Shown here in pieces: positions 6,556 through 13,895 of a DNA stretch of 52,514 nucleotides (its first letter is position 1; every line of letters begins with the position of its first letter). A model generated the notes under the pieces. That model was not told the origin of the DNA and ran no database searches. It worked only from the letters and a program-made list of their open reading frames with translations. Both the position numbers and the translations under genes were made by a program. The stretch comes from Verrucomicrobiota bacterium (GTDB taxonomy: Bacteria > Verrucomicrobiota > Verrucomicrobiia > Chthoniobacterales > SZAS-18), in contig JANXRG010000109.1 in the NCBI GenBank assembly GCA_025353105.1, positions 1 to 52,514 of the forward strand, read 5' to 3'.

Positions 6556-6590
6556 AAATGCCGAAGTGCGAATGCCGAACGCCAAAGTGA
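6556..6590 (+). repeat. 7-bp-period array (GAATGCC/GAACGCC family)
   Basis: Five units in register: AAATGCC, GAAGTGC, GAATGCC, GAACGCC, AAAGTGA. The array begins 5 bp after the stop codon of the WecG-type gene. Related arrays are at 8052-8086, 8333-8346, 10631-10658, 11081-11150 and 40537-40558. Confidence 0.75.
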
Positions 6591-7251: not shown

Positions 7252-8046
7252 TCACCCCAGTGCCGCGCGCAGCGCCGCGACGCGCGAGGCGTCCACCGGG
7301 TTTGAGACGAGTCCATCCCGCTTCAGCGAGGTGCCGACGATGAATCCGTTCGCCAGCTTGAGGTACGGCTCGAGCGTGTCGACGGAGACACCGCTCCCCA
7401 GAAGAATGGTCGCGTCCGGACAGGCCCGCCGTACCCGACTCAGGTCACTCGGATCTGCCGACCTGCCGGTGCTGACGCCCGTGACAATCAACGCGTCCGC
7501 GAGCCCGCGCTCGACGGTGTCGCGCGCCGTCTCCTCGATGCTGAAATCCGCGAGGGGCCGCCCGTGCTTCACATGCACATCAGCAAAGATACGGGTCTGC
7601 GGGCACAAGGCCGCGCGCTGCCGGAGCGTTTCGTGCGCCGCGCCCTCCACGATGCCCTGATCCGTGACCATCGCGCCGGTGTGAACATTCACCCGGATAA
7701 AGCTTCCACCATGCACGGCGCAGAGCGCGAGCCCAGTCGCGGCATCGTTGCGCAGGACGTTGAACCCGAGCGGCAGGCCGCGCAGGTCGTCGCGGACGGC
7801 CACGGCCGCCGCACTCAACGCCGCAATGGTGACGGGCGCCACGGTGCCTTTGCGGAAGGGCACGTCGCCGAAATTTTCCAGGATGACGGCGTCGGCCCCG
7901 CCCTCACGATAGGCGGCCGCGTCGAGTCGGGCTGAGGCCACGACCGAACCGAAATCGCCATCCCAACGCGGCGAACCCGGCAGCGGCCGGAGATGGATCA
8001 CGCCGATGAGCGATTTGGCGGAAGAACCAGGGAAGAGATTTGCCAT
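7252..8046 (-). CDS. BtpA/SgcQ family TIM-barrel protein
   Basis: The 264-residue protein matches the BtpA family along its length. It has LIGVIHLRPLPGSPRW at the N-terminus, GGADAVILENFGDVPF near residue 50 and LGFNVLRNDAATGLAL near residue 95. VNVHTGAMVTDQGIVEG follows, then IFADVHVKHGRPLADFS, VTGVSTGRSADPSDL and the phosphate-binding-like GSGVSVDTL. BtpA was linked to photosystem I stability in cyanobacteria, but homologues are widespread in non-photosynthetic bacteria, where the function is unknown and an aldolase-like or isomerase-like activity is only suspected. It is a standalone gene here, divergent from the SSS symporter with a repeat-filled space between them. Confidence 0.85.
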   Translation of the reverse strand: MANLFPGSSAKSLIGVIHLRPLPGSPRWDGDFGSVVASARLDAAAYREGGADAVILENFGDVPFRKGTVAPVTIAALSAAAVAVRDDLRGLPLGFNVLRNDAATGLALCAVHGGSFIRVNVHTGAMVTDQGIVEGAAHETLRQRAALCPQTRIFADVHVKHGRPLADFSIEETARDTVERGLADALIVTGVSTGRSADPSDLSRVRRACPDATILLGSGVSVDTLEPYLKLANGFIVGTSLKRDGLVSNPVDASRVAALRAALG

Positions 8047-8051
8047 AGGGG

Positions 8052-8086
8052 GAATGACGAGCGCCGAATGCCAAATGCCGAACTGT
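8052..8086 (+). repeat. 7-bp-period array, left outer arm
   Basis: Units GAATGAC, GAGCGCC, GAATGCC, AAATGCC, GAACTGT. It is inverted relative to 8333-8346. Confidence 0.7.
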
Positions 8087-8107
8087 TTCGGAGACGGCGA
8101 TGGGAAG

Positions 8108-8141
8108 TTAACCGCAGATTAACACAGATTTCCGCAGATTT
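8108..8141 (+). repeat. CGCAGATT array (family B)
   Basis: Three copies of CRCAGATT spaced 10-11 bp apart after GTTAAC. Its reverse complement is present at 8246-8277, and a further copy is at 11771-11797. Confidence 0.8.
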
Positions 8142-8158
8142 TTTGGACAGAAGGATGA

Positions 8159-8190
8159 ACCAAGAATTTCACACGAAAAGACACGAATTT
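8159..8190 (-). repeat. TTCATTCGTG-type array, inverted (family A)
   Basis: On the minus strand it reads AAATTCGTGTCTTTTCGTGT and then GAAATTCTTGGTT. It pairs with 8285-8322. Confidence 0.75.
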
Positions 8191-8245
8191 ATTCAATAAG
8201 CTGGGACTTACATCGATCGTTCTGCAGTCTCTCCGCCTAGGAAGA

Positions 8246-8277
8246 AATCTGCGTAAATCCGCGTCAATCTGTGGTTC
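8246..8277 (-). repeat. CGCAGATT array, inverted (family B)
   Basis: On the minus strand it reads GGAACCACAGATTGACGCGG and then ATTTACGCAGATTT. It is the inverted partner of 8108-8141. Confidence 0.8.
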
Positions 8278-8284
8278 CATCCGC

Positions 8285-8322
8285 GAATTTTCATTCGTGT
8301 TCATTCGTGTTCCTTCGTGGTT
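8285..8322 (+). repeat. TTCATTCGTG-type array (family A)
   Basis: Three units TTCATTCGTG, TTCATTCGTG, TTCCTTCGTG followed by GTTA. The exact 10-bp spacing puts every unit on one face of the helix. Confidence 0.8.
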
Positions 8323-8332
8323 ACTCCGATTC

Positions 8333-8346
8333 GGCATTTGCCATTT
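8333..8346 (-). repeat. 7-bp-period array, right outer arm
   Basis: Units GGCATTT and GCCATTT are inverted relative to the units at 8052-8086. They close a roughly 295-bp foldback element. Confidence 0.6.
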
Positions 8347-8372
8347 CACCCGCGCTGCCTTAATCGGCGCGG

Positions 8373-9974
8373 ATGTCGATTTCGTGGGCGCTGGATGGCG
8401 CCATCATCGTCGGTTACTTCACGCTCATCGTCGGGCTTGGGCTCTACATGGGTCGCAAGGAGGATTCCATGCACGATTTCGCCCTCGGCGGGCGCAAGAT
8501 TCCCTGGTGGGCCGTGCTCGCCTCGATCGTCGCGGCCGAGACCAGCGCCGGAACGTTTCTTGGCACCCCCGGCGAGGGCTACACGCTGCGCAATTACACC
8601 TACCTCCAGCTCGCGTTCGGCACGATCATCGCACGCGTCATCATCGCGTTCGTGTTCATCAAGCCGTACTACGATTACAACGTTTATTCGATCTACGAAT
8701 TCCTCACCGTGCGCTTCGGCACCGGATCGAAGAACGCGGCCAGCGCGGTGTTCCTCGTCACGCGCGTCCTCGCCAGCGGCACCCGGCTCTACGTCGCCGC
8801 CATCATCCTCGTGCTGACCTACGAGCTGTTCACCGGCGCGCGGCCGGACAAACACAGCGAACTGTTCATCTACCTCGCGGCGATCACCTTCGTGGTTGTC
8901 CTGACCGCGATCTACACCACCCTCGGTGGCATCAAGGCGGTAATCTGGACCGATCTTATCCAGGCCGTCATCATGCTCGGCAGCGCGCTCGCGGCGATCT
9001 GGCTGCTCTTTCGCGCCATTCCGGGCGGCATGGACACCATCACCGCGCGCCTCAGCGGGCCGCACGACCTGCAGGTCATCGACAGCGGCATCGAGGCGGG
9101 AAAATCTTTTTGGCAGAACGCGAAGGGCATCCTTGAATCCGAGTACACGATGTTCGCGGCGTTGCTCGGCTCGACTTTCACGACCATGGCCACGCACGGC
9201 ACCGACCAGGACATGGTCCAACGCATGCTCACAGCCAAGGACGTCAAGCGCAGCCGCCTTTCCCTGATTCTATCGGGTCTCGCGGACATTCCGATCGTCG
9301 TGATCTTTCTCACCATCGGCGTCCTGCTCTGGGTGTTTTATCAAGCCAGCCCCGATCCAAACCTGCCGAAGAAGACGAACGAGATTTTCTCCTATTACAT
9401 TCTCAACGGTCTGCCGCCGGGTATGCGCGGACTTCTCATCGCCGGGATTTTTGCCACGGCGATGGGCTCGCTCAGCACGGCGCTCAACGCCCTCGCGACA
9501 AGTTACACGCGCGACTGGCATGAACCGTATTTCGCAAAGAATCGCGGCGACGCCGCTTCCCTGCGCACCGTGCGCTGGGCAACGGTCGTGTTTTCGGCGC
9601 TGATGATCGTCGTCGCAGCGGCCACCGCATATTTCGTCATCATCCGCCCGGACAAGCGCATCGTCCCCATCGCGCTCGGCATCTTCGGCTACACCTACGG
9701 TTCGCTGCTCGGCGTGTTTCTCGTCGGCATGCTGACCAAGAAGCGGGGGAACGATTTTGGGAATCTGCTCGCGATGATCCTGGGATTCATCGCGGTGGCG
9801 CTTCTCAGCGGGCTGCCGAACGATCTCGCCCGGCTCTTCGGCCGCGACTTGTATGCGCAGCCCGACTGGCTGCCGGTCATCGAATTCCCCTGGCGTATTT
9901 TCTTCGGCACCATCGTGACGTTCACCGTGGCCTGCGGGTTCCGCACCCAGCTGGCGGAGGAAAGAGTTTCGTGA
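8373..9974 (+). CDS. Sodium:solute symporter (SSS) family transporter
   Basis: The 533-residue protein has about thirteen hydrophobic segments typical of the SSS/LeuT-fold family. The first helices read IIVGYFTLIVGLGLYMGRK followed by DFALGGRKIPWWAVLASIVA. AETSAGTFLGTPGEGY corresponds to the substrate and sodium-site region of TM1-TM2. GTDQDMVQRMLTAKD and the FATAMGSLSTALNALATSYT block around residue 360 are the typical GTDQ and Ser-rich sodium-binding elements. It would import a solute with sodium at the inner membrane, but the substrate cannot be read. Its stop overlaps the GTG start of the CAP-domain gene (GTGA), so the two are translationally coupled. Confidence 0.88.
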   Translation: MSISWALDGAIIVGYFTLIVGLGLYMGRKEDSMHDFALGGRKIPWWAVLASIVAAETSAGTFLGTPGEGYTLRNYTYLQLAFGTIIARVIIAFVFIKPYYDYNVYSIYEFLTVRFGTGSKNAASAVFLVTRVLASGTRLYVAAIILVLTYELFTGARPDKHSELFIYLAAITFVVVLTAIYTTLGGIKAVIWTDLIQAVIMLGSALAAIWLLFRAIPGGMDTITARLSGPHDLQVIDSGIEAGKSFWQNAKGILESEYTMFAALLGSTFTTMATHGTDQDMVQRMLTAKDVKRSRLSLILSGLADIPIVVIFLTIGVLLWVFYQASPDPNLPKKTNEIFSYYILNGLPPGMRGLLIAGIFATAMGSLSTALNALATSYTRDWHEPYFAKNRGDAASLRTVRWATVVFSALMIVVAAATAYFVIIRPDKRIVPIALGIFGYTYGSLLGVFLVGMLTKKRGNDFGNLLAMILGFIAVALLSGLPNDLARLFGRDLYAQPDWLPVIEFPWRIFFGTIVTFTVACGFRTQLAEERVS

Positions 9975-10627
9975 CCACGCAACGCCTCAGCCTCAGCCTC
10001 GTTGTCGCCAGCGCGCTGTGGTTCGCCGCCCGCGCGCCCGGCGCGCCCGCGCGCAAGCCAAGCGGAGCGGATGACGCGATCGACCTCGCACATTTTCACC
10101 GGGAAGTCGCCGCGCGCGCAATCTTTGAGGAATCGAATCGCCGGCGCACCGCCGCGGGATTACCGCGCCTCGCGCCGCTGGCGGCGGCGCAGTCGGCCGC
10201 GCTTTGGCAGGCCCAATTCATGGCGCAAGCCGGGGCGATTTCGCACGTCAATACGAGCGACCGCGCACGGCGCACGCTGGAGGATCGAATTCGCGCCGCG
10301 GGCATCACCTTCCGATTTATCGCCGAGAATGTGGCGGTGAATTTTGCGATCGACTACGAGGCGCGCCGGCCGGTTTACCCGCGGCGGGGACCGGCGGGCG
10401 AGGCGCTCTTCAGCTACACGGGCGACGGTCCGCCGCTCCGCCCTCACACCTACGCGAGCATGGCGCGCGCGGTGGTCAGCCAGTGGATGAACTCGTCCGG
10501 TCATCGACAGAACCTGCTCTCGCGCGAGGCGAAACACCTTGGCTGCGCCGCCGTGCCCGGCCTGCGGGATCTGCACGGAGGCCTCGGAAGCATCTATTGC
10601 GCGCAGGTCTTCACCGCGCTGCGGTGA
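9971..10627 (+). CDS. Secreted CAP (SCP/PR1) domain protein
   Basis: The 218-residue protein has a GTG start overlapping the symporter stop by 4 bp. An N-terminal hydrophobic stretch (LSLSLVVASALWFAARAPG) looks like a signal peptide. The CAP fold follows: an Ala-rich helix with ARAIFEESNRRRTAAGLPRL, then GAISHVNTSDRARRTLEDRI with a CAP-type His, then FIAENVAVNF, SQWMNSSGHRQNLLS with the second His, and KHLGCAAVPG. Bacterial CAP proteins of this type are secreted, and their molecular role is mostly unknown. Coupling to a sodium symporter is unusual and suggests a shared role outside the cell or at the periplasmic face, though simple operon packing is equally possible. A 7-bp repeat array begins only 3 bp after its stop. 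Confidence 0.83.
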   Translation: MTTQRLSLSLVVASALWFAARAPGAPARKPSGADDAIDLAHFHREVAARAIFEESNRRRTAAGLPRLAPLAAAQSAALWQAQFMAQAGAISHVNTSDRARRTLEDRIRAAGITFRFIAENVAVNFAIDYEARRPVYPRRGPAGEALFSYTGDGPPLRPHTYASMARAVVSQWMNSSGHRQNLLSREAKHLGCAAVPGLRDLHGGLGSIYCAQVFTALR

Positions 10628-10630
10628 AGA

Positions 10631-10658
10631 GAATGCCGAACGCCGAACGCCGAACGAG
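10631..10658 (+). repeat. 7-bp-period array, left arm of the S23-type element
   Basis: Units GAATGCC, GAACGCC, GAACGCC, GAACGAG start 3 bp after the CAP gene stop. It is inverted relative to the ten-unit array at 11081-11150 on the other side of the four-helix-bundle gene. Confidence 0.8.
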
Positions 10659-10672
10659 GCGCTTGGCACGTT

Positions 10673-11044
10673 TTACTCGCGAACGGTCGTCTTGCGAGAG
10701 TAGCCCGAGGCGGTGATTCGGGAGGCAGACATGATCGCGAGAATTTCTTCGGCTTCACTCTTGAGGGGCGCAATCGATCCGACGGGGAGGATTTTCCCAT
10801 CGCCAATCAATTCGAGCCAGTAGATGCATTCATCAGCTTCTTCCTCAACGATGCCGAGCTTCGCGATGAATTCAGCCTTGGATCGGCCTCGGCAGGCTGC
10901 CCGGTAGTTCGCGCCAACGGAAGTTCCGGCACGTCCAATCTGGTTCGCAATGATCTTTCCTGATTTCGTATTTGGCAAAGCCTCGACCAATTTGAGGACC
11001 CGCAGCGCAAATAATTTTGTTCGATTTTTCAGTTCAGTGCTCAT
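10673..11044 (-). CDS. Four-helix-bundle protein, 23S rRNA IVS (S23) family
   Basis: The 123-residue protein has the S23 layout: LKNRTKLFALRVLKLVEALP, then GKIIANQIGRAGTSVGANYR (the conserved QL-R-A-SV-NY-like block), then KAEFIAKLGIVEEEADECIY and WLELIGD. This family is encoded in intervening sequences of 23S rRNA genes in Leptospira, Coxiella and others, and is related to Avd of diversity-generating retroelements. Stand-alone copies such as this one occur in many genomes with no proven function. The frame continues upstream into the 7-bp repeat array as repeated PNAE-like residues, so the internal ATG at 11044 is taken as the start. The gene sits between inverted repeat arrays that fill the gap between two convergent genes. 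Confidence 0.85.
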   Translation of the reverse strand: MSTELKNRTKLFALRVLKLVEALPNTKSGKIIANQIGRAGTSVGANYRAACRGRSKAEFIAKLGIVEEEADECIYWLELIGDGKILPVGSIAPLKSEAEEILAIMSASRITASGYSRKTTVRE

Positions 11045-11080
11045 GCGGGCAGCGTCACACGGGTCAAGACGGCCAGTCGA

Positions 11081-11150
11081 GCCATTCGCCATTCGCCGTT
11101 CGGCATTCGCCGTTCGGCATTCGGCATTCGGCATTCGGCATTCGGCATTT
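11081..11150 (-). repeat. Ten-unit 7-bp array, right arm of the S23-type element
   Basis: Exactly ten heptamers in register: GCCATTC twice, GCCGTTC, GGCATTC, GCCGTTC, GGCATTC four times and GGCATTT. The array touches the TAA stop of the MOSC gene. On the minus strand the units read GAATGCC and GAACGGC, complementary to the array at 10631-10658. Confidence 0.88.
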
Positions 11151-11623
11151 TAGGCCTCCCGCCGGACCACGCCGTCGGTCAAGATCTTCGCCCGCAAACC
11201 GCCCTCGCCCTGGAGCGCCTGCTCGGCGCCCGCACAGAAAGCCTGGTCCATCCAATAGCATGGGGCCGATTCCTGCGTGCCGAGGAAGCGCACGCCCTGG
11301 ACTTCAAACTCGCGTCCGATCAGCGCGTTCAGGTCCACGCCGCGTGTGACGAGATTTCGCCGGAACGATTCCAGGCCCTTGTCCGTGACTTGAAATTTCT
11401 CGCATAGGCGTTCCCAAGTCTCCTCCGCAAAGAACGTCACCTGGCCCTTGTGATTCTCCTTGTGGTCGAGGAACCGATCGCCCTCGAGCCCGCGCCCCGC
11501 GAGGCATTTCACCTCGTCGACCTCGATGACCGGCGCGGTGCCCGGCTCCTTGCCGTGGTGCCCGAAATAATTGTGCGCGGGCGAAATGAAGATGTGGCGG
11601 ATGCGAATGGCCGGGGAGTCCAT
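11150..11623 (-). CDS. MOSC domain protein
   Basis: The 157-residue protein is a single MOSC domain, the fold found at the C-terminus of molybdenum cofactor sulfurases and in YiiM/YuaD-like proteins. It reads VKCLAGRGLEGDRFLDHKEN, FFAEETWERL, then FRRNLVTRGVDLNALIG (the conserved R-N-hydrophobic-T-x-G element) and the C-terminal APCYWMDQAFCAGAEQAL and GGLRAKILTDG. The Cys in APCYWMD matches the conserved MOSC cysteine. It probably handles sulfur or delivers molybdenum cofactor in the cytoplasm. The modAB, fdhD and molybdopterin oxidoreductase genes just downstream on the map fit this role. Its last codon abuts the repeat array bounding the S23-type element. Confidence 0.87.
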   Translation of the reverse strand: MDSPAIRIRHIFISPAHNYFGHHGKEPGTAPVIEVDEVKCLAGRGLEGDRFLDHKENHKGQVTFFAEETWERLCEKFQVTDKGLESFRRNLVTRGVDLNALIGREFEVQGVRFLGTQESAPCYWMDQAFCAGAEQALQGEGGLRAKILTDGVVRREA

Positions 11624-11770
11624 GCCGTCAATGTGCGCGCCACGCGTAAAATCTCAATGGTGAGTCGACGGCCAGCGGGTTAACCACCGTCACGCGCCCC
11701 GGTGGCGGCGTGAGACAGCCGGTCAGGCCGAAGACGGGTTGCGGCGCATTGCACGGGAGTGGAATGCGGC

Positions 11771-11797
11771 AAATTAACGCAGATTTCCGCAGATTAT
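11771..11797 (+). repeat. CGCAGATT array (family B)
   Basis: AAATTAACGCAGATTTCCGC then AGATTAT: two CGCAGATT units 10 bp apart. It is nearly identical to 8117-8141. Confidence 0.75.
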
Positions 11798-11899
11798 TTT
11801 TCGATTAGAAATCACAAGAAACGCGCTTTCAGCTGACGTTCCCACTTCCGATCTCTGACTTTGAACAAAATTAGCCGGACTTAGAAAATTTTCGGAGAG

Positions 11900-11985
11900 A
11901 CCGATCTGGGTTTCGCACAGCCGAGTGCCGCGATACGGCACGAGACAGCCTTTCAAACTTCGACCGTTCCTAAAAAGGCAAAGCT
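11900..11985 (-). repeat. Decayed copy of dispersed repeat family F
   Basis: On the minus strand the GTTTGAAAGGCTGTCTCG segment matches the core of the elements at 5653-5738 and 21928-22005, but the flanks have diverged. Confidence 0.5.
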
Positions 11986-12090
11986 CACGGAACCCACGGA
12001 GAAGCAAAGACGAGAAGGAAAAGCGACCTCATCCAATTCCTGAGATTCTGTTAATTCCGTCTAGTCAGTCCCGTTGATCTCAGCGCCCTT

Positions 12091-12174
12091 CGACCTCCGA
12101 CTTCCGACCTCCGACTTCTGACTTCCGACTCCCGACTTCCGACTTCTGGCTGTCGACCCTCGACCCTCGACGTT
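12091..12174 (+). repeat. Twelve-unit 7-bp array (CGACTTC/CGACCCT)
   Basis: Twelve heptamers in register: CGACCTC, CGACTTC, CGACCTC, CGACTTC, TGACTTC, CGACTCC, CGACTTC, CGACTTC, TGGCTGT, CGACCCT, CGACCCT, CGACGTT. It ends 14 bp before the stop of the thioredoxin-like gene. Short pieces of the same pattern appear near 7175, 32485 and 40611. Confidence 0.85.
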
Positions 12175-12188
12175 GGACTCATCTTCCT

Positions 12189-13085
12189 TCAGCTCTGATC
12201 CAGCAGATGGCCAAATTGTTCCATGGCTTTTTCCGCGCCGACAAATTTGTTGCCCTCGTAGCTGCTGACGACGACGCGGCCGCGCTCGTCCACCACCACC
12301 AGATTGGGCACGTCGGAACCGCCAAACTGCTGGCGCAGCCGTCCAATCACCTCGCGTTGATCATAATCCACCGCGAGCCACGGCATCTGCATTTCGCGAA
12401 CGTGGTAGGCCATCTCCTTGGCGGAGCGATCCGTGGGGACAAAAATAACCTCGAATTTCTCTGAGTCCCGGCGGTGCGTTCCGTAAAACTGCGCGAGGCG
12501 CGGCGTGAAGGCCCGGCAGGCATCGTCGCTGCGGGTGGCGAAATACAGGGCGATGAACCTCTTGCCCACGAGACCGGCCCCGGATTGCGGCGCGACCGAA
12601 TCCCCTCGGAAACCGATCAGGCCATCGCGCAGAAATGCGCCGAGCGGATTTTGGATTGGACCGGCGGGACCCCCGGCCACCGGTGGAACGTTTCCGGGAG
12701 CCGCTGCGCCAGCGGCGGCTGGGGGCGGTGCAACCGGACGCGAGGCCGCCGCAATGCGGACCTGATTGGACGCAGCGCCCGCCAGCAGATCGGTTTGGGA
12801 GGCAGGCAGCGTGACCGCTGCACCCTGGTATTCAAGTTGGACCGTCGCGCCTTCGACCGCGACGACTTTCATCAATTGCCCCGCCGGCAGCGTCACCGTG
12901 GTGGGCGCACCGCCGCTTGGTCGGAGCGTGACCTGCGCGGGTCCCTTCGTGATCACCTGCTTGGGCCACAGCTCGGGATGCGCGGAGACGTATTCGACCG
13001 TGAGGCTCGTGGCCGCCCCCTGAGCGTGCGCGCCTGCGGCCAACGCAACCAGCAGGCCAAAGCGAAGGAGGGAGGAAAACTTCAT
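12189..13085 (-). CDS. Exported thioredoxin-like protein with N-terminal SH3-like region
   Basis: The 298-residue protein has a signal peptide (LLRFGLLVALAAGAHAQG), so it should act outside the cytoplasm. Residues about 30-105 look like a small beta-rich SH3-like domain (VTLPAGQLMKVVAVEGATVQ). An Ala/Pro linker follows (about 112-145), then a nucleoredoxin/tryparedoxin-type thioredoxin domain: GKRFIALYFATRSDDACRAF, FEVIFVPTDRSAKEMAYHVR, MPWLAVDYDQRE, VPNLVVVDERGRVV. The active site reads S-D-D-A-C rather than CxxC, leaving only Cys190, so ordinary dithiol chemistry is unlikely. The ATG at 13085 is chosen because the signal peptide starts there, although the frame is open to 13157. It lies 90 bp after modB in the same direction. 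Confidence 0.8.
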   Translation of the reverse strand: MKFSSLLRFGLLVALAAGAHAQGAATSLTVEYVSAHPELWPKQVITKGPAQVTLRPSGGAPTTVTLPAGQLMKVVAVEGATVQLEYQGAAVTLPASQTDLLAGAASNQVRIAAASRPVAPPPAAAGAAAPGNVPPVAGGPAGPIQNPLGAFLRDGLIGFRGDSVAPQSGAGLVGKRFIALYFATRSDDACRAFTPRLAQFYGTHRRDSEKFEVIFVPTDRSAKEMAYHVREMQMPWLAVDYDQREVIGRLRQQFGGSDVPNLVVVDERGRVVVSSYEGNKFVGAEKAMEQFGHLLDQS

Positions 13086-13175
13086 CTCGACAATTTTGGG
13101 GATTCCAACCGCGGGGGGCCGGGTGACCACTAAATTCAGAAGCGGATTTAATGCCAACGCGTCGTCCGCGCCGCG

Positions 13176-13895
13176 TCAAGGATGGTGGTTCGGCGCCTTG
13201 ACCCGTTGCAACACGGCCATCGCCAGCAAGAGCGCGAACGAGGTCAGCAGCAGGACCGCCGCATAGGCGTGCGCCACGTTGTCATTCATTTTCTGCACTT
13301 CATCGTAGAGGGCGATCGACGCGACTTTGGTCCGACCCGGCAGGGCGCCTCCGATCATGAGCACGACGCCGAATTCCCCGAGCGTGTGCGCAAACGCGAG
13401 CGTCAGGCCGACCGCGACCCCGCGTTGGGCCAGCGGAAGATGGACGCGGAAAAAAACGCTGAGCGCCGAGGCCCCGAGCGTTTGTCCGGCCTGCAACAAA
13501 TCGGGCGACACGCCCTTGAGCGCGGCCTGAAAGGGCTGCACGGCAAACGGCAACGAGTAAAAGACCGATCCGATAACGAGCCCGGTGAAAGTGAAAGAAA
13601 GCGTCCCACCCGTGAGCGCAACCCACCAACTCCCGGGTGCGTGCTGCGGCGAGAACGCGACGAGCAGATAAAACCCGATCACGGTGGGCGGCAGCACGAT
13701 CGGCAACGTGACGAGCGCCTCGATAATCGGAATCCATCGGGAACGCGAACGGTTCAACCAGTACGCGAGCGGCAGCCCAAGGACGAACAGCACCAAGGTC
13801 GTCACCGCCGCGAGTTCAAAGGTCAGCCCCAAGGCCTGCCAAAGGCCCGGGGGAATCCCGAGAAATAAAGCGTCGGCAGGCGGCATCCGGCTCAA
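13176..13895 (-). CDS. modB: Molybdate ABC transporter permease ModB
   Basis: The 239-residue inner-membrane protein has about five hydrophobic segments. It carries the ModB/CysT-type cytoplasmic loop GQTLGASALSVFFRVHLPLA (the EAA-like coupling loop), preceded by GVSPDLLQA, and ends with LALAFAHTLGEFGVVLMIGG-type sequence and IALYDEVQ, all typical of molybdate permeases. It overlaps modA by 4 bp (ATGA), so the two are translationally coupled. The ATP-binding partner ModC is not next to it: the next gene in the same direction is a thioredoxin-like protein. The ATPase must come from elsewhere in the genome or be shared with another transporter. Confidence 0.9.
   Translation of the reverse strand: MSRMPPADALFLGIPPGLWQALGLTFELAAVTTLVLFVLGLPLAYWLNRSRSRWIPIIEALVTLPIVLPPTVIGFYLLVAFSPQHAPGSWWVALTGGTLSFTFTGLVIGSVFYSLPFAVQPFQAALKGVSPDLLQAGQTLGASALSVFFRVHLPLAQRGVAVGLTLAFAHTLGEFGVVLMIGGALPGRTKVASIALYDEVQKMNDNVAHAYAAVLLLTSFALLLAMAVLQRVKAPNHHP

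Follow-up and report, generated by a model that had tools for sequence, protein, structure and literature searches.

A single S23 gene between opposed 7-bp repeat arrays: a probable minimal mobile element related to 23S rRNA intervening sequences

In a 52,514-nucleotide stretch of DNA from a Verrucomicrobiota bacterium (contig JANXRG010000109.1, positions 1 to 52,514; termed the window), a small gene of the S23 (four-helix-bundle) family, which is best known from insertions into rRNA genes, lies between two arrays of 7-bp repeats that are inverted relative to each other. The question raised by this locus is whether gene and arrays constitute a single unit and, if so, whether that unit moves. 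A preliminary description, made from the sequence alone, had proposed a mobile, free-standing relative of the intervening sequences (IVSs) found in 23S rRNA genes. The analyses described here indicate that positions 10628 to 11149 (minus strand) are probably a minimal mobile element, with one S23 (Avd-like) gene and with the opposed arrays as terminal inverted repeats. Mobility was seen in relatives, from which the unit nature of the window copy and its mobility are deduced.

The S23 unit and the insertion sites of its relatives

The S23 gene (10673-11044, minus strand) encodes a protein of 123 amino acids with matches to PF05635 (59.9 bits) and TIGR02436 (79.8 bits), the S23/23S_rRNA_IVP families, and this protein also matches by sequence the S23-fold structures PDB 2GSC and 2RLD. 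An in-frame ATG at 11134 would lengthen the open reading frame across the right array to 153 amino acids. The left array, which forms the left arm (10631-10656, plus strand), contains 3.7 copies of GAACGCC/GAATGCC, and the right array (11083-11149, plus strand), its inverse, 9.6 copies of CATTCGG with the variants CGTTCGG and CATTCGC. The arrays previously described (10631-10658 and 11081-11150) are, therefore, present, with the corrections that the left one consists of three full repeats plus a partial one and that the ten repeats on the right are not identical. The best pairing between the arms involved 24 of 26 bases and scored 21. Elsewhere in the window, 1342 gene-sized placements gave scores of at most 16, and 1000 shuffled sequences gave at most 17, which confirms that the gene is enclosed by mutually inverted arrays. 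The unit thus ends in inverted repeats of the kind found in DNA transposons and insertion sequences.

Presence and absence of such units as a block was detected on cyanobacterial plasmids. At a first site, a unit was present on plasmid C of Trichormus and on a Scytonema plasmid, and the site was empty, at 97 to 99% identity, in Nostoc linckia, Aulosira, N. carneum and others. The empty sequence, AAAAAGTAATTAACAAAT, corresponded to AAAAAGTAAT-unit-GTAATTAAC in the filled version, in which the inserted unit included both arrays and GTAAT was duplicated. A second site, on Nostoc plasmids, read GGTTCTAGGTTATG when empty and GGTTCTA-unit-TTCTAGTTATG when filled, with duplication of TTCTA, while a third, also on Nostoc plasmids, exhibited a near match (TAATG versus TTATG). 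There was no pre-existing array at the resolved empty sites; the gene and both arrays had arrived together. These few cases, two of them exact and one a near match, support a target duplication of about 5 bp upon insertion next to a stop codon, and the empty and filled versions of these sites are now available for direct tests. Related units, 78 to 82% identical, were detected in different surroundings, with homology ending at the arrays. The left arrays of the Scytonema and Trichormus copies differed by 14 bp, equivalent to two repeats, showing that arrays shrink or grow by whole repeats. Gene-less relatives of approximately 170 to 220 bp with the same ends were present in the same group of plasmids, and one of these was an internally deleted S23 unit.

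Of 289 genomes sampled from the phylum, 221 contained S23 genes, and among the 38 phylum loci fetched, 21 had arms that matched each other with a score of at least 16, a level reached by 2.3% of cross pairs between loci. Score thresholds such as this one were set by the analyst. A wider set comprised 77 named loci from many phyla, selected because their S23 matches were strong; S23 genes at large may show a different rate. In this set, 53 of the S23 genes scored at least 16, as compared with 5 of 311 other genes located in these loci and 1.6% of cross pairs. A repeat period of 7 was found in 53% of S23 flanks (11% of controls) and a period of 8 in 16% (1% of controls), and these were the only enriched periods between 4 and 12, all others being near zero in the S23 flanks. 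The repeat strand reading toward the loop was usually purine rich (AG exceeded CT in 70 of 78 units and was exceeded by it in 3); as the arms are mirror images, this polarity implies no fixed orientation of the gene. In one genus (loci L219, L221, L225, L228, L229 and L239 to L241), the S23 arms were about 100 bp long, with a 7- to 8-bp repeat (e.g., ATATCGT or TTTCGTC) alternating with small hairpins of differing sequence.

The locus and the source genome

The unit in the window occupies, as its coordinates confirm, the entire gap between two convergent genes that lie outside it. On the left, a gene of the CAP/cysteine-rich secretory family (9971-10627, plus strand; stop codon TGA at 10625-10627) is separated from the left array by 3 bases, and on the right, the array runs up to the stop at 11150 of a MOSC domain gene (11150-11623, minus strand). 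With these neighbors the unit is located outside rRNA, and no Rfam match was found between 7900 and 12600. Elsewhere in the window, a gene-less array of the GAATGCC family (6557-6583, plus strand) has 13-mers in common with the arms of the unit. At 12091-12171, tandem CGACTTC repeats are followed by TCGACCC repeats in a single orientation, and an inverted partner was not seen.

The assembly contains six S23 genes, all of which lie between complementary arms with a period of about 7. Each unit has its own repeat: GAATGCC (the window), GTCGAAG, GGTTATT, ATTTCAG, GAAACTC and GAATGAC. Scores of left against right arms were 13.5 to 26 within units and 8 to 15 between units; the weakest, 13.5, was that of the GGTTATT unit and was slightly above those of its cross pairs (10.5 or less). 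Words of 13 bases from the GAAACTC arms recurred in 31 clusters in the genome (0 to 3 for shuffled words) and those from the GAATGCC arms of the window unit in 18 (1 to 4 for shuffled words). Three other units had 9, 9 and 4 clusters, with nulls of up to 4, 4 and 1, respectively, and no arm 13-mers of the GGTTATT unit recurred in the genome. These counts indicate clear dispersal of arms in two families but leave that of the others in doubt.

Gene-less hairpins were also observed, with 19 short-loop pairs of period 7 in 1.10 Mb of the source genome, more than the number of S23 units, and the GAAACTC family has arms in common with one S23 unit. The idea that period-7 arms regularly carry other genes was rejected, S23 being the only recurrent cargo in the 1.10 Mb; a regulator gene between two neighboring hairpins and pairings of adjacent hairpins were left out of this count. 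S23 units could be the origin of many of the 7-bp arrays scattered through bacterial genomes.

Matched arms, movement and rival explanations

The mobile-element reading poses the puzzle of how arrays 400 bp apart retain an identical, unit-specific sequence. In five Flavobacterium species, an S23 unit was present at one orthologous site with flanking genes that were 71 to 89% identical, while the repeats varied by species group (AGTAGCTG, CTAAGGTT and AAAGGTTC types). The arms nevertheless matched each other in four of the five, with own scores ranging from 16 to 27.5 and most cross scores from 7.5 to 15. Two species with a common AGTAGCTG repeat cross-matched at 18 and 27, and one other cross pair scored 16.5. 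In another genus, an S23 gene was 90% identical between copies yet inverted relative to flanks of about 83% identity, a configuration that recombination between the arms would be expected to produce, with two independent insertions as the alternative. One sugar-operon site (L217 versus L218) contained two different S23 units despite flanks that were 96 to 98% identical, and others had no unit there. The ratios of nonsynonymous to synonymous substitution rates for the S23 coding sequence were 0.01 to 0.16 in ten pairs, several with saturated synonymous rates; the protein is under purifying selection.

A mechanism can be proposed for such an element. Inversion or gene conversion involving the two arms, or template switching within a hairpin, might preserve their likeness. 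The S23 protein, presumably required for the unit to persist, may aid movement by binding to the folded nucleic acid or to the arms, with a trans-acting enzyme doing the cutting and joining. The 23S rRNA IVSs could have arisen from units that inserted into rRNA genes, where RNase III trims the stem.

Several observations weigh against the unit being mobile in this way. There is no known nuclease motif in S23, and the moving enzyme is, therefore, absent from the model. The S23 gene is all that lies between the arrays of the window unit, leaving it with no transposase of its own, and a scan of seven genes in its surroundings (7252-13895) found no transposase, integrase or reverse transcriptase. 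A target duplication or empty site was not identifiable for the window copy, the two congeners with a relative of the CAP gene having a different neighborhood. Two further insertions (sites C and D), one of which is absent from many related plasmids, had no exact boundaries. The fifth Flavobacterium locus (L161) had no clear arm pair, with an own score of 11, and about 30% of tested S23 loci had no clear pair at scores of at least 16. The preliminary description had held that S23 genes without flanking arrays would count against it, and this has partly come about. The arrays are also not exclusive to S23, as similar ones occur without any gene and around a second gene family (GxxExxY, below).

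An explanation at the level of RNA, compatible in part with mobility, is that the arms are kept complementary for the sake of a stem in the transcript, which would be excised by RNase III or would protect the mRNA, spread being secondary. The sense RNA of the window unit is predicted to form a stem closed by the arrays, with a fold z of -4.9 as compared with -2.8 for the opposite strand, and with its 24 of 26 paired arm bases it has the complementary, stem-closing ends of an IVS. S23 units were also found embedded in operons, between cas6 and cas4, between an iron-sulphur assembly gene and sufB, between nrdB and nrdA, and in a sugar operon. The first of these is an AGGTGAC-array unit in the type I-D CRISPR operon of plasmid pANA02 of Anabaena sp. 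90 (L115). RNase III is known to remove the IVSs of rRNA (PMC4990558). The good fold of the sense RNA and the location of units inside operons keep this explanation alive. Selection for a sense stem would have favored G-U over A-C mismatches, and the opposite was detected (133 A-C versus 85 G-U), subject to the caveat that array registers obscure which bases truly pair. The folding proposed in the preliminary description was thus reproduced, while the lack of a G-U excess leaves a role for the RNA unproven. Moreover, excision of a unit located between convergent genes, such as that in the window, would serve no transcript, and inverted copies persist. On balance, we view selection on the transcript as an unlikely primary explanation.

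A further possibility is that gene-less inverted 7-bp arrays pre-exist throughout genomes and that the S23 gene enters their hairpin loops, as it does in helix 45 of rRNA. The excess of gene-less period-7 hairpins over S23 units in this genome, the GAAACTC arms held in common with one S23 unit and the finding that the rRNA unit takes the place of a former loop (PMC4990558) favor such parasitism. The resolved empty sites, however, had no prior array and acquired gene and arrays together, and related units bring a related gene plus related arrays into new contexts, making this origin improbable. A reading of the arrays as plain simple repeats, or as regulatory elements belonging to the genes on either side, with S23 as an unrelated neighbor, is already contradicted and hardly credible: 7-bp repeats are the commonest of the 5- to 11-nucleotide bacterial repeats and have been interpreted as regulatory (PMC4679880, PMC2700814), but matched arms were far more frequent around S23 than around control genes, arm matching is mostly private to a unit, and gene and arrays were inserted together.

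Related units and comparison with known systems

Genes of the GxxExxY family (PF13366/TIGR04256), in which the D...ExK motif is intact, were likewise located inside unit-specific inverted arrays. Matched arms were present at 14 of 16 loci in one set and 23 of 27 in a second (37 of 43; relatives L302 to L350 plus G000:C35, C50, C51 and C97), as compared with 2.5 to 3.7% of cross pairs and with none of 34 control reading frames in the second set. The array period was 8 to 10, mostly 9. The two families co-occur above expectation. The GxxExxY nuclease as an obligate helper of S23 units was rejected, since it was absent from 24 of 60 S23-positive genomes (hand count). Within the window, a gene-less nest of inverted arms is present between the BtpA and SSF genes (8050-8346), with outer 7-bp GAATGCC-type arms (score 13.5), a middle pair of period-10 ACCGCAGATTAACACAGATT arms (score 20) and innermost CACACGAA/ATTCGTG arms (score 10.5). 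Evenly balanced, in our judgment, is the broader proposal that S23 and GxxExxY units form one undescribed class of single-gene mobile elements. Each unit would end in inverted short-repeat arrays that match each other, the repeat period depending on the gene (7 to 8 bp for S23 and about 9 bp for the PD-(D/E)XK-like nuclease GxxExxY), and its arms would be rewritten in concert; there would be many gene-less offspring, and the rRNA IVSs would be the ribosomal branch. The evidence of mobility comes from S23 members.

Among known heptanucleotide and octanucleotide repeats, the putative regulator sites of Geobacter and the TAACTGA repeats of Beggiatoaceae resemble the arrays in being short-period tandem repeats, often in opposite-strand pairs in Geobacter; they differ in having been interpreted as regulatory, and the available parts of these reports contained no link to S23 or mobility (PMC2700814, PMC4679880). 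Miniature inverted-repeat transposable elements and other small dispersed repeats of cyanobacteria and other bacteria are similarly short, intergenic and dispersed, with inverted-repeat ends, and there are gene-less forms with the ends of S23 units. The S23 unit differs from these in carrying a conserved protein under selection and in having short-period arrays of unit-specific sequence as ends. REPIN/RAYT and IS200-type systems combine hairpin ends with one small gene, as does the S23 unit, but RAYTs encode a Y1 transposase and the unit encodes S23 only; a target duplication of about 5 bp is, furthermore, not expected for that family. We take the S23 protein to be kin to Avd of diversity-generating retroelements, from which the window unit differs in that the seven genes scanned include no reverse transcriptase; template and variable repeats were not searched for.

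The closest comparison is with the IVSs of 23S rRNA, whose origin and spread have been an open question since 1990. No description of the general array-ended, self-matching layout, of presence and absence as a block or of the target duplication was found in the open-access literature. On plasmid AZO_p2 of Azospirillum lipoferum, an S23 gene lies within a 23S rRNA gene (the Rfam large-subunit match spans it), and the ends of this IVS are inverted arrays of CAGAGGA/CGGATGA-type heptamers. The IVS of Coxiella burnetii has a 28-bp terminal stem and tandem GACAGAT heptamers whose number varies from strain to strain, and in rRNA the IVS sits where the loop of helix 45 used to be (PMC4990558). This anatomy is, therefore, common to at least two rRNA cases. 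The window unit differs in lying outside an rRNA gene and shares with these IVSs the protein family and a single gene inside complementary ends. The general occurrence of array-ended S23 units, the rRNA case with the same ends and the empty sites in relatives support the proposal of a free-standing, mobile IVS relative and suggest that ribosomal IVSs represent one particular form of an intergenic mobile unit with a wide distribution.
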